A stretch of DNA of 64,000 nt from positions 1 through 64,000 of the forward strand of contig NZ_JRVC01000004.1 of assembly GCF_000807925.1 (NCBI RefSeq), given 5' to 3'. Below, in pieces: positions 225-7,426 of this stretch. Source of the DNA: Novosphingobium subterraneum (GTDB lineage Bacteria > Pseudomonadota > Alphaproteobacteria > Sphingomonadales > Sphingomonadaceae). Below the pieces are notes generated by a model. The model saw only the letters and a list, made by a program, of their open reading frames with translations, did not search any database and was not told where the DNA came from. The position numbers were made by a program, and so were the translations under genes. The number at the start of each line of letters is the position of its first letter. Positions within the stretch are counted from its first letter, which is position 1.

Positions 225-1292
225 TCAGAACAGGTCCAGCTGGCCGTTGGGGCTGGGCTTCCTGAATTGCGCGCAGTCCAGATCGATGCGGGCCTTGCCG
301 ATGCCGTGCTTGCGACAGGCGACGCGGAAGCGGGTGCGGATGAGGTCGGCCCAGATGCCATTCGGCTTCATGCGGGTGAAGAACTGCGCGTCGTTGTCCT
401 TGCCGCCGCGAACCGACTGGACGATCCCCATGACTTTCGATGCGCGATCCGGGAAGTGCGTGTCGAGCCATTCGCGGAACAGCGGGGCGACTTCGTGTGG
501 AAGGCGCAGCATGATCCAACTGGCCGACCTCACGCCACGTTCTGCGGCGGCCTCAAGGATGCCTTCCATGAACTGGTCGGTGATCGAAGGAATGACCGGG
601 GCGACCGAAACATGGGTGGGGATGCCGGCGGCAACAAGCTTTCCAAGGGCTTCCAATCGCTTGGCAGGACTGCTTGCACGCGGTTCGAGAAGGCCGGACA
701 GGCGCGGGGCGAGGCTGGTGACCGAGATGCCGACCGCGGTCAGATTGCTGCGGGCGAGTTCGGCCAGCAGGTCCAGATCATCCAGTACGCGCGCGGACTT
801 TGTGGTGATGGTGACCGGGTGGCGCAATTCGAGGCAGAGTTCGAGCACCTGGCGGGTGATGCGGTAACGGCTTTCGATCGGCTGATAGGGATCGGTATTC
901 GTGCCCATGGCAATGGGAGCGGGCATGTAGCCGGGCTTGGCCAGGGTTTCACGCAGTAGCTTTGCCGCATCGGGTTTGGCAAAGAGCTTCGTTTCGAAAT
1001 CGAGGCCGGGCGAGAGATCGTGCCAGGCGTGGGTGGGCCGAGCGTAGCAGTACACGCAGCCATGCTCGCACCCCCTGTAGGCGTTTACCGAACGATCAAA
1101 GGGGATGTCGGGCGAGCGGTTGAAGGTGAGGATCGAGCGGGAATGTTCTTCGGTGACCGTCGTGCGCAGCTTGGGACCGGGACCGTCGATATCCTCGCGA
1201 GCGTCGAGCCAGTCGCCGTCAACCTCGCGCGTGGCGAGGCCGAAGCGTGTCGGGACATTTGCGGATTGTGCGCCTCTGCCATGGACTGCCAT
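225..1292 (-). CDS. PA0069/SplB-type radical SAM protein
   Basis: The 355-residue protein has the radical SAM cluster motif C-x3-C-x2-C at C75, C79 and C82 (GCEHGCVYCYAR) and ends in GQLDLF, a tail typical of the PA0069 family. These proteins belong to the COG1533 group (spore photoproduct lyase-like) and are often called DNA repair photolyases, but no substrate is established for this family. The ATG start follows moaB by 51 bases, and a GAAC-N7-GAAC box lies 11 bases upstream. It could therefore be transcribed separately from moaB and induced by DNA damage. Family assignment is firm; a repair role is inference. Confidence 0.9.
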   Translation of the reverse strand: MAVHGRGAQSANVPTRFGLATREVDGDWLDAREDIDGPGPKLRTTVTEEHSRSILTFNRSPDIPFDRSVNAYRGCEHGCVYCYARPTHAWHDLSPGLDFETKLFAKPDAAKLLRETLAKPGYMPAPIAMGTNTDPYQPIESRYRITRQVLELCLELRHPVTITTKSARVLDDLDLLAELARSNLTAVGISVTSLAPRLSGLLEPRASSPAKRLEALGKLVAAGIPTHVSVAPVIPSITDQFMEGILEAAAERGVRSASWIMLRLPHEVAPLFREWLDTHFPDRASKVMGIVQSVRGGKDNDAQFFTRMKPNGIWADLIRTRFRVACRKHGIGKARIDLDCAQFRKPSPNGQLDLF

Positions 1293-1302
1293 GGCTGGAT
1301 TG

Positions 1303-1317
1303 GAACATAAGTGGAAC
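1303..1317 (-). promoter_or_regulatory. Putative LexA (SOS) box
   Basis: On the minus strand the sequence reads GTTCCACTTATGTTC, a perfect match to GTTC-N7-GTTC, the LexA operator known in alphaproteobacteria. It lies 11 bases before the ATG of the radical SAM gene, in an AT-rich gap of 51 bases after moaB, which is where a repressor would block a promoter for that gene. Confidence 0.6.
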
Positions 1318-1343
1318 GAAAATGCAATAGCGATTGGAAAGAC

Positions 1344-1871: not shown

Positions 1872-3657
1872 GCGATGCGATCCTCACATTATCTGCGCCT
1901 GAAAGGCCGGGGAACTTGGGCCACATGCCCTGGACAAGGCCCATGCGGCTTTCCGACGGGCCGCCGGCCTGCTTTTCGTACATCCAGTAATTGCGCATGA
2001 CGATGGAAACGTAGCCGCGCGTTTCCCAGTAGGGGATCGATTCCATCCACAGCAGCGGATCGCTGCCGCCGCGGATTTCCGTGTTCCAGCGGCTGATCGG
2101 CAGGGGGCCGGCATTGTAGGCGGCCATGACCTTGGGCAGGAGGCCCTGCGTCGCATCGGAATCGCGCAACTGCTGGAGGTACTGCTGGCCGAAGGCAAGG
2201 TTGACGTCAGGCAGGTCGAGCTGGCGATCGCGCCCGGCCATTGCCGGCTCTACGCGGGCCATGTCCTTGGCCGTGCCGGGGCGGACCTGCATCAGACCCT
2301 TGGCCCCGGCCGGGCTGGTGACGGCCGTGCGGAAGTTCGATTCCTGCAGCGAATGGGCAAAGAGCAGCGCGGGATCGACCTTCCAGCCCGTGGCCGGCGT
2401 CCACTTCGGCGCAGGGAAGCGCGCGGATTCATCGGGACGGGCCCCTGCCGGGGCATTGTAGGCCATCCACAGCTGGGTGGAGGGGAGGCCCAGATCGCGG
2501 GCAAGGCGCGAGAGCGGGGCATATTGCCCGGGCGCGCCGATGCGGGCCTGATGGCGCAGGACTTCGTCGGCAAGGCCGTCTTCGCCGATTTCGGCAAGCT
2601 GCACGGCGGTGCGGATGTTCGGAACGTCGCGAAGCTGCTGCCAGTCATTCTGCGAGAAGTCCGGCGCCACCGGCGGCGTGCTTTCGCGCATGCCCAGCGC
2701 TTCGGACGCCATCATGCCGTAGAGCGTTTCGCGGAAGCGGGCGGCGTTGCGCAGCGAGGCCGAGACCTTTTCCGGCTTGCGGCAGCGCAGCCAGGCGCGG
2801 CTGGCCCAGTAGTGTGCGGCGGACGCCAGTTCGTCGTTCTGGGCTGATCCTGCGGTCTTTTCAAAGGCGTCGGCGGCGGCGAGGCAGTCGCTCAGGCGCC
2901 AGCTGGCAAGGCCTGCGGTCCAGTAGGCTTCCGCGACCCACGGGCCGGTGCCTTCGGCGGCGGTGAGCGAAAGAGCGCGGGCGGTGGCGTCGTCGTTCTC
3001 GATATAGAAGGCCCAGCCGACCTTCTGCCGCCATTCGGCGCGAGCAGCGGGCGAGAGCGTGGCATCGACCCCATCGAGCAGGACGCGGGCACCGACGGGA
3101 TCGTCAAACTTGATGCGGTCCTGAATCGCGGCGGCGACGCCGGCCGGCATCGTACCGTCATCGATCGGGCGCGGCTTGATGCGCTTGGAAACGGTGGGAA
3201 GGCTGACAAGACGCTGTGCCTGCGGCAGGGCGGGCATGTCGGTGGCGCCGCGCTTCAGGGCGAGGCGACCGAGCTGCTCCGCCCACGGCAAGTCCGGAGC
3301 CTTGGCCAGCACTTCAGTGATCGGTGCGAGCTCTGCCTTGGGCGAGGTTGCGGCCAGCATGTACTGGGCGCGGGCTACCGTATGGAGAGGCCCATCGGTC
3401 CGCTGGGCGAACAGCGTCTGCACCTGCGTCCAATCCTCGCGCTCGATCGCGGAGAACAGGCTCTTGTAATAGGAGCGATCGTCGGCGCTCAGCAGCGAGG
3501 GGACGGCGGTGCGATCGGCGCGGCCACGGAAATAGTCGACCGCGGCGCTGTTGGCGTGAGCCGGGACAGCCGAAAGCCCAAGCGACGAGGCCGCGAGCGC
3601 GAGCAGCGTGAACGTCTTGGCGCGAGCCAGCTTCAAATCGTTTCGGTCCCCGTCCAT
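1861..3657 (-). CDS. Soluble lytic murein transglycosylase (SLT family)
   Basis: A periplasmic enzyme that would cleave peptidoglycan glycan strands to 1,6-anhydromuropeptides. The ATG at 3657 gives a clear signal peptide (LLALAASSLGLSAVPAHA) and a 598-residue protein. A long helical superhelix-like region is followed by the SLT domain at about residues 425-560, with the catalytic glutamate in SLQESNF (about E439), the GLMQV motif, and AYNAGP. It overlaps the upstream glycosylase-like gene by 25 bases and the downstream moaB by 11, so the three form a tight operon. An in-frame upstream start would lie deep in the neighbour and precede the signal peptide, so I reject it. Confidence 0.93.
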   Translation of the reverse strand: MDGDRNDLKLARAKTFTLLALAASSLGLSAVPAHANSAAVDYFRGRADRTAVPSLLSADDRSYYKSLFSAIEREDWTQVQTLFAQRTDGPLHTVARAQYMLAATSPKAELAPITEVLAKAPDLPWAEQLGRLALKRGATDMPALPQAQRLVSLPTVSKRIKPRPIDDGTMPAGVAAAIQDRIKFDDPVGARVLLDGVDATLSPAARAEWRQKVGWAFYIENDDATARALSLTAAEGTGPWVAEAYWTAGLASWRLSDCLAAADAFEKTAGSAQNDELASAAHYWASRAWLRCRKPEKVSASLRNAARFRETLYGMMASEALGMRESTPPVAPDFSQNDWQQLRDVPNIRTAVQLAEIGEDGLADEVLRHQARIGAPGQYAPLSRLARDLGLPSTQLWMAYNAPAGARPDESARFPAPKWTPATGWKVDPALLFAHSLQESNFRTAVTSPAGAKGLMQVRPGTAKDMARVEPAMAGRDRQLDLPDVNLAFGQQYLQQLRDSDATQGLLPKVMAAYNAGPLPISRWNTEIRGGSDPLLWMESIPYWETRGYVSIVMRNYWMYEKQAGGPSESRMGLVQGMWPKFPGLSGADNVRIASRGN

Positions 3658-4412
3658 TCGAGCCAGCGGCTCCACAGACCTGCCTTGAGGGCAGGGCGCT
3701 GCAGCATGGCTTCGAGATCCCACGCCGGCAGCGCGGGAAGTGGTGGCCCTTCTTGATTAATTGCCCGTAAACTTTGAGCCAAATTCGGCGGGTCGTTGCC
3801 GAGAAGCGCCGAAATGCCTGATGCGCCCAGGATCAGCAGTCGTTTCGGAGCGGCAAGAGTGATGTGGTGGAGGAGAACTTCGCCGAGGCCCGACTCCTTG
3901 TGGAGGTGCCAATCGGGCATCGGCACGTGGGCTGGAAGGGCAGAGGCGATGTAGGTTCGGGACCGGTCAAGGCCAAACGCGGCCAGCATGGCATCGAGCA
4001 ATCGGCCTGCACGCCCGGAGAGAAGGGTATCGCCATCGTCTGCCGAGGGCATCGGCACCAGGATCATCAGGTCCGCACCTTGCGCGCCGACCGGAGGCAG
4101 GCGATGCAACCCGGCGGGCGCGAGGGCGGGTTCGGCCAACCACCAAGGGGCGAAGGCTTCAAAGGTCTGCGGCCAATCAGCCTTGGCGCTAACCTTGGCC
4201 ACCTTGGGCGAATCATCGCGCTCTGCCGTGAGTTCGCGCAGCGGCTTCATCGGGGCCGGTGGTGCAGCTTCCCTTGGCTTGCGCGCTTCGGACAGCCAGT
4301 CTTGAGCATCGTCAACGAAGGCATGGTCTACGCCCGCATCGCGCCACCAATCGAGCGCGGCCGTAACGGCATCGCGCCACTGATGATTTTCTGCGTTAGC
4401 GATATCGGGCAA
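3633..4412 (-). CDS. Uracil-DNA glycosylase-like protein without Fe-S cysteines
   Basis: The C-terminal half resembles the uracil-DNA glycosylase superfamily of families 4/5: LLSGRAGRLLDAMLAAFGL matches the GRAGxLLD motif, RTYIASALP matches the strand that usually reads YITNVVK, and LLILGASGISALLG matches the last Rossmann element. The cysteines that hold the 4Fe-4S cluster in family 4 are absent, so catalytic activity is uncertain. I chose the TTG start at 4412 because AAGGAAAG lies at proper spacing before it; an in-frame TTG at 4487 has no such site. About 259 residues. It is divergent from ETF-QO and is the first gene of the transglycosylase-moaB operon. Confidence 0.7.
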   Translation of the reverse strand: MPDIANAENHQWRDAVTAALDWWRDAGVDHAFVDDAQDWLSEARKPREAAPPAPMKPLRELTAERDDSPKVAKVSAKADWPQTFEAFAPWWLAEPALAPAGLHRLPPVGAQGADLMILVPMPSADDGDTLLSGRAGRLLDAMLAAFGLDRSRTYIASALPAHVPMPDWHLHKESGLGEVLLHHITLAAPKRLLILGASGISALLGNDPPNLAQSLRAINQEGPPLPALPAWDLEAMLQRPALKAGLWSRWLEWTGTETI

Positions 4413-4522
4413 CCTGTCTTTCCTTCCAGTCCAATTTGCGGTCTTGACCTTGCCTGTGCCCTCTTTCAAGGCACATTCGAAATTCAATCGTGCGTTTAGC
4501 AGCAGTCGGGAGATATCGGGGC

Positions 4523-6632: not shown

Positions 6633-7426
6633 AAGAAACCGCTTACGCCAAGATCAACCTTGCGCTGCATGTGCGGCGGCGCAGGGAGGATGGGTATCAT
6701 GAGCTTGAGACGCTGTTTGCCTTCGTGGATGCGGGGGATGTGCTGAGCGCTTCGTCTGCGCAGGCGGATTCGCTGCGCGTTGTCGGCGAGTTTGGCGGGG
6801 CGCTGGACGATCCGTTCGGCAATATCGTGGCCAAAGCCTTGCAATCGCTGCCGCATGGGCCGGGCTGGGCGGTGACGCTGGAGAAGAATCTGCCGGTGGC
6901 GGCCGGGCTGGGTGGCGGATCAGCCGATGCCGGGGCGATATTCCGGATGGTTCGGGACAGCCATGGTTTGCCGGAGGACTGGCATGCGCGAGCGGCGAAG
7001 CTGGGGGCGGACGTGCCGGCTTGCGTCGAGAGCGTGGCGTGCATCGGACGCGGAACCGGAACCGAACTGGAGCCGATCGCCAACGATCTGGCGGGGACGC
7101 CTGTGCTGCTGGTCAACCCTCGCATTCCGCTGGCGACCGGGCCGGTGTTCAAGGCTTGGGATGGCGTTGATCGCGGGCAGATGGAAGGTGACAACCTCAG
7201 GGAAATGGCGCTTGCGGGCCGCAATGATCTGGAAGCTCCGGCACTGACGCTCGTGTCAGAAATTGGCGATGTGCTGAGAGCCTTGGAGCAGACGGGCGCG
7301 TGGTTGACGCGTATGTCAGGATCAGGCGCGACGTGCTTCGCGCTCTATGATAGGCCTGAGCTGCGCGATGCCGCCAAGGTGGCTATGCCGGCGGGGTGGT
7401 GGACCTTGGCGGGGGCCCTGCGATGA
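6629..7426 (+). CDS. ispE: 4-diphosphocytidyl-2-C-methyl-D-erythritol kinase
   Basis: IspE phosphorylates CDP-methylerythritol in the non-mevalonate (MEP) route, which supplies the precursors for ubiquinone and for the carotenoids made from the crt genes at 40-44 kb. The 265-residue protein has the N-terminal YAKINLALHV motif, DGYHELETLF, and the GHMP-kinase ATP loop LPVAAGLGGGSADAGA at residues 89-104. It ends within the start of the next gene (ATGA overlap at 7423-7426), so the two are probably co-translated. Confidence 0.95.
   Translation: MKETAYAKINLALHVRRRREDGYHELETLFAFVDAGDVLSASSAQADSLRVVGEFGGALDDPFGNIVAKALQSLPHGPGWAVTLEKNLPVAAGLGGGSADAGAIFRMVRDSHGLPEDWHARAAKLGADVPACVESVACIGRGTGTELEPIANDLAGTPVLLVNPRIPLATGPVFKAWDGVDRGQMEGDNLREMALAGRNDLEAPALTLVSEIGDVLRALEQTGAWLTRMSGSGATCFALYDRPELRDAAKVAMPAGWWTLAGALR

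Follow-up and report, generated by a model that had tools for sequence, protein, structure and literature searches.

On the minus strand of the window, i.e., the whole 64,000-nucleotide stretch of Novosphingobium subterraneum DNA that was analyzed, the segment at positions 1303 to 1317 can with high confidence be regarded as a functional LexA operator that lies in the promoter region of a radical-SAM enzyme gene of the PA0069 family, and the gene very likely belongs to the SOS response. Both conclusions are drawn from sequence comparison, above all from the conservation of the box before orthologous genes of Alphaproteobacteria and from the occurrence of another LexA-type motif at the same place outside this class.

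The perfect GTTC-N7-GTTC site that the first-pass annotation had reported on the minus strand is present as GTTCCACTTATGTTC, reading from 1317 to 1303, and corresponds to the published alphaproteobacterial LexA motif (PMC3323433). A distance of 11 bases to the start codon had been given; this is correct when counted to the A of the ATG (1290–1292, minus strand; base 26 if the box starts at base 1), while the intervening bases number 10 (1293–1302). The PA0069-family gene occupies positions 225–1292 on the minus strand and encodes a protein of 355 amino acids, in which the N-terminal GRGA..N...RF stretch of the family's alignment consensus follows directly behind this ATG. The next gene upstream, located on the same strand at 1344–1871, is moaB, encoding molybdenum cofactor biosynthesis protein B (TIGR02667, 233.7 bits, cut-off 222.4). 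Between its stop codon at 1344 and the ATG there is a gap of 51 bases (1293–1343), and the box indeed lies in an intergenic region of its own. A moaB relative is often directly adjacent in sphingomonads and located 1–2 kb away in other Alphaproteobacteria. Further upstream, past a lytic-transglycosylase-like gene, the reading frame at 3633–4487 (minus strand) yielded a match to the uracil-DNA glycosylase superfamily of 22.8 bits, below the cut-off of 24.3.

Taken by itself, the bare pattern is common. Two GTTC-N7-GTTC sites are found in the window as compared with 1.37 expected, with at least two present in 40 of 100 shuffles, and 154 sites are found genome-wide vs. 127 for the reversed control pattern. 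Rarity therefore fails as proof of the site, which stands above chance because the box is conserved before orthologues. The second site in the window, GTTCGGTTCCGGTTC at 7053–7067 on the minus strand, is within the chance number and lacks the T-rich centre seen in boxes that are conserved. For the narrower pattern GTTC-N5-ATGTTC, the genome contains 20 sites vs. three for its control, which suggests that some of these 20 sites are under selection; two of them are situated on contig C1 in a stretch that seems to be repeated. On this contig of 400,152 bases, the box sites listed for the first ~175 kb reappear at a distance of 225,135 bases. Such a pattern would be expected from a duplicated stretch or from a circular replicon of ~225 kb whose ends overlap in the assembly.

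In the organism's own genome, both lexA and recA are preceded by GTTC-N7-GTTC boxes (GTTCCGCATTCGTTC and GTTCCCCTCTTGTTC, respectively) and the LexA motif of the PA0069-gene promoter is thus common to all three genes. The box GTTCCGCCTATGTTC is located 15 bases before the ATG of a radA-like gene that was named by eye from its sequence. SOS-type boxes also occur before two SRAP-like genes (L179 and L184, recognized by eye from their MCNLYRM start), where they are oriented opposite to the gene, unlike the box in the PA0069 promoter, and near two genes resembling HTH/S24-type repressors by eye (L171 and L182), possibly of prophage origin or encoding secondary LexA-like regulators.

The first-pass annotation had proposed a search for the same box before orthologues and named its absence there as part of what would speak against the reading. 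We gathered upstream DNA of PA0069-family genes at each rank from genus to phylum as well as from named genomes, anchored the loci at the family start and scanned positions −450 to +30. The genus set consists of the best 30 of 88 genomes with a match and the order set of the 30 best-scoring loci, while the 32 loci of the same-family set were picked by hand to spread genera. One locus, L031, was dropped before the alphaproteobacterial total of 219 was reached, as its contig ends inside the gene; the 11 named loci outside the class were tallied separately, and removal of five duplicates left 214 distinct loci. A perfect box on the strand of the gene precedes 199 of these 214 genes (204 of 219 with duplicates), where the rows are related to one another and the counts are not independent trials. 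Broken down by set, the box is present in 29/29 loci of the genus, 29/30 of the order, 29/32 of the same family, 27/30 of the class, 28/29 of a further class set and 62/69 of the named Alphaproteobacteria. The class sample comprises, by labels, 16 families beside the window's own, and at least one perfect box was found in 15 of them. Among the 15 misses, 12 feature a version of the box with one mismatch, and only L121, L145 and L293 contain neither a perfect nor a one-mismatch box between −450 and +30.

Loci L031 to L170, with the named non-alphaproteobacterial ones left out, contain 120 same-strand boxes and no opposite-strand box between −300 and +20, as compared with seven same-strand and 11 opposite-strand sites in the 653,614 bases outside this interval. 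The resulting background of ~0.0034 same-strand sites per 320 bases predicts about one chance match among 219 loci. An opposite-strand site occurs in addition in one of the 214 loci (L285, at −330). The control gene moaB was not preceded by the alphaproteobacterial box in any of 30 loci. For recA, a perfect box on either strand was found in 11 of 30 loci of a class-wide sample that included small genomes. When both genes were compared in the same 30 genomes, recA showed a perfect box (either strand) in 18 genomes and a one-mismatch version in the other 12, and the PA0069 gene showed a perfect same-strand box in 29. The idea that the PA0069 gene is more surely controlled by LexA than recA was rejected, since all 12 recA misses show the one-mismatch version. 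The claim that the LexA site links the gene to the damage response thus stands when it is combined with the conservation before orthologues, from which we infer membership in this response, while the lone site would be weak evidence.

Outside the Alphaproteobacteria, the PA0069 gene often kept LexA-type boxes as the motif changed. The SOS box of the E. coli type, CTGT-N8-ACAG, is found before 32 of the 50 PA0069 genes from outside the class (29 of 39 in the phylum sample and three of 11 named ones), the beta- or gammaproteobacterial label of loci without an organism name being deduced; the named gammaproteobacterial loci L127, L132 and L169 carry it. Conversely, the alphaproteobacterial box is absent from all 39 loci of the phylum sample, and CTGT-N8-ACAG from all 219 alphaproteobacterial loci. 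A perfect CTGT-N8-ACAG is missing in 18 of the 50 loci, 14 of which show none of the tested motifs. A version with one mismatch is present in the betaproteobacterial locus L133 and, at the distant position −432, in L247; L148 (Xanthomonas bromi) and L223 feature TTAG-N6-TACTA, which we take to be the Xanthomonas LexA site.

The arrangement of the box relative to putative promoter elements differs between the window's genus and other Alphaproteobacteria. In 91 alphaproteobacterial loci from outside the genus (one duplicate kept; the five duplicates stay in for all promoter counts), TTG is found at box positions 5–7. A TA at the start of a hexamer at position 27 or 28 is present in 71 of these 91 loci as compared with at most 21 for any pair of positions clear of this peak, and in 60 of the 91 loci an in-frame ATG follows 4–8 bases after this hexamer. 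In many Alphaproteobacteria, a −35 element (TTGnnn) thus seems to be located inside the LexA box, followed after 16–17 bases by a −10 element and about six bases later by the ATG. The start codon would then be situated at about +1, which suggests a leaderless mRNA in many members of the class, and a −35 element inside the box would also account for the constant orientation of the latter. Within the genus of the window, TTG instead starts 10 bases ahead of the box in 25 of 30 loci (window included); in the window it forms part of TTGCAT at 1322–1327 (minus strand), a putative −35-like hexamer. An in-frame ATG is found at base 26 in 21 of 29 loci of the genus. The −10 element of the genus may be TATGTT within the box (1304–1309, minus strand), as judged from base counts in the genus loci, 27 of 30 of which have A as the second and T as the sixth base, or TCTnnT overlapping the box end. 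A clean −35/−10 pair for the window's own promoter was not upheld, since a scan of positions 1250–1420 for a sigma-70 consensus promoter found none. With either candidate for the −10 element, LexA would cover the promoter.

The encoded protein is a full-length member of the PA0069 family (NCBIfam NF033668, 451.8 bits, cut-off 360, profile positions 2–348 of 348) and matches the Pfam Radical_SAM domain (PF04055). Alignment A1, consisting of the window protein and proteins from 54 of 80 named loci, shows that the cysteines of the CX3CX2C cluster (C75, C79 and C82) are invariant in all 55 sequences. A structure model built from these sequences (pLDDT 80, pTM 0.80; residues 1–27 and 94–99 mostly unreliable) has spore photoproduct lyase (4fhg) as its nearest fold in the PDB, with an E value of 2.2e-9, a TM score of about 0.49 and 17% identity, the core being common to other radical-SAM enzymes; SkfB ranks second (E 1.5e-6). 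The family shares a tyrosine in the slot of the lyase's Y97 (Y81, 55/55), while the Y99 slot is mostly filled by phenylalanine (residue 83, F in 44/55 and Y in 11/55). In the lyase of B. subtilis, Cys141 has been described as the fourth catalytic cysteine and likely hydrogen donor (PMC3742179). The PA0069 family contains no conserved counterpart: between residues 83 and 320 the highest cysteine column is 124 with 15/55, and the other top columns beyond the cluster are 326 (31/55) and 340 (23/55). Profile alignment to lyase relatives stops short of the Cys141 region; aligned by eye, FEASCYTDP of a lyase relative coincides with IAMGTNTDP of the window protein, which would put a threonine at the cysteine's place. 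The enzyme is probably lyase-like in its fold and in the use of a 5'-deoxyadenosyl radical. One catalytic feature of the lyase is missing. The statement of the first-pass annotation that family members are named photolyases by analogy only is therefore justified, as the label rests on distant likeness: the fold is nearest to spore photoproduct lyase, yet the family conserves no equivalent of the lyase's fourth, catalytic cysteine. PADLOC returned nothing for the protein, and PHROGs yielded a family of unknown function together with a weak match to "DNA repair photolyase".

Several other explanations have to be weighed against a LexA operator. That the box is a chance match without function would be in line with the frequency of the bare pattern in the window and in the genome, and is nevertheless close to negligible in probability given its presence in 199 of 214 orthologous loci against the low density of same-strand sites nearby and its absence before moaB. 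The box might instead be conserved as part of the promoter or be bound by a regulator other than LexA; in loci with TTG inside the box, its centre seems to double as a −35 element, which may explain part of both conservation and orientation. This reading is very improbable, because the motif recurs before the lexA and recA genes of the same organism, GTTC as such is no sigma-70 element, and the exchange of the alphaproteobacterial box for CTGT-N8-ACAG outside the class fits LexA as the reader. Rather more weight, though still clearly on the unlikely side, is given to the possibility that LexA binds and matters little since most transcripts read through from moaB: both genes are on the same strand, separated by the 51-base gap, no terminator was found at 1250–1420, and 78 of 170 loci of limited length, many of them too short to show one, have a moaB relative upstream in the same orientation. 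Against this speak the occurrence of the box also in loci whose moaB gene stops over 2 kb upstream (L125, L147, L149, L159, L160 and L166) and the recurrence of the promoter geometry across loci.

With regard to the product, the enzyme could be a true spore photoproduct lyase, as the nearest PDB fold and the published "SplB" label of such genes (PMC3323433; PMC8565304) might imply. The lyase model TIGR04070 gave weak matches in 29 of the 55 family members at E ≤ 1, with 7.6e-5 as the best value; TIGR03886 matched the window protein at 0.015. On the other hand, TIGR04070 has no match at E ≤ 0.001 in the organism's own genome, no lyase was retrieved from the PDB sequences by phmmer with the single protein (E ≤ 1) or with the family profile (E ≤ 10), and the only invariant cysteines are those of the cluster, all of which makes a true lyase a highly improbable option. 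Three genomes (G314, G434 and G449) contain a lyase relative scoring below the TIGR04070 cut-off in addition to a PA0069 gene, and one of these relatives (L407) matches the PDB lyase at 2.6e-60.

Under control by LexA, the following course of events would be expected. In undamaged cells, LexA bound to GTTC-N7-GTTC would cover the promoter and keep RNA polymerase off. Upon DNA damage, RecA filaments would trigger self-cleavage of LexA and the promoter would be freed, such that the gene would be switched on together with lexA and recA, as implied by the box common to these genes and by what is known of the SOS circuit. The product would be a [4Fe-4S]/SAM radical enzyme that probably acts on damaged DNA or nucleotides by a chemistry other than the Cys141 chemistry of the lyase. 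Tentatively, and with some leaning toward doubt as far as the combination of all parts is concerned, we propose that the PA0069 family is steadily LexA-controlled in Pseudomonadota through the change of motif, that it serves the radical-SAM-based repair or clearance of a still unknown lesion by non-lyase chemistry, and that many Alphaproteobacteria transcribe the gene as a leaderless mRNA with the −35 element in the LexA box. A mere bystander of the damage response would hardly be expected to keep a LexA-type box across classes with differing LexA motifs, and in view of this conservation the PA0069 family is a promising place to look for a DNA-repair activity not yet described.

We know of no experimentally assigned function for any member of the PA0069 family. 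Older papers reportedly listed PA0069 from P. aeruginosa and Rv2578c from M. tuberculosis as LexA targets; our literature search, which covered few subscription papers, found nothing on PA0069 or Rv2578c in connection with LexA. SOS control of such genes has already been predicted. The new aspects are the breadth of conservation together with its controls, the change of motif, the promoter anatomy and the missing cysteine, and the same search found no paper stating these four points for the PA0069 family. As to sphingomonads, lexA, recA, radA, dinG, imuAB-dnaE2 and SRAP genes of Sphingopyxis granuli were induced together during anaerobic growth with no DNA-damaging agent added; in the part of that report available to us, the induced list names no PA0069 gene, and the term "photolyase" is absent from the main text (PMC6472365).

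Among known systems, spore photoproduct lyase (SplB, PDB 4fhc–4fhg) is the nearest solved fold and agrees with the PA0069 family in the CX3CX2C cluster and the tyrosine at the Y97 slot, whereas the family differs by the lack of a conserved Cys141 and by the predominance of phenylalanine at the Y99 slot. At the level of regulation, the SOS-controlled genes listed for Bacteroidetes include SplB (COG1533; PMC8565304), SplB-like genes have been found in SOS gene neighborhoods (PMC3765255), the radical-SAM gene vnz_31145 appears in the table of the LexA regulon of Streptomyces venezuelae (PMC9380542), and a "DNA repair photolyase" of M. tuberculosis is induced in a RecA-dependent manner (PMC8151990). 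By their labels as radical-SAM or "photolyase" genes and by their dependence on LexA or RecA, the genes from Bacteroidetes, S. venezuelae and M. tuberculosis resemble the one described here; they differ in that they belong to other phyla with other LexA motifs. Closest is the "splB" gene for which SOS control was predicted in 2012 in Alpha- and Betaproteobacteria: the motif is the same, the gene is of a similar kind by label, and Rhizobiaceae, Brucellaceae and Rhodobacteraceae were treated, whereas the alphaproteobacterial species list in the figure legend is without sphingomonads (PMC3323433). In the accessible text of the same study, the trait is said not to have been observed in Gammaproteobacteria; for the PA0069 family, the boxes at L127, L132 and L169 argue against this statement.
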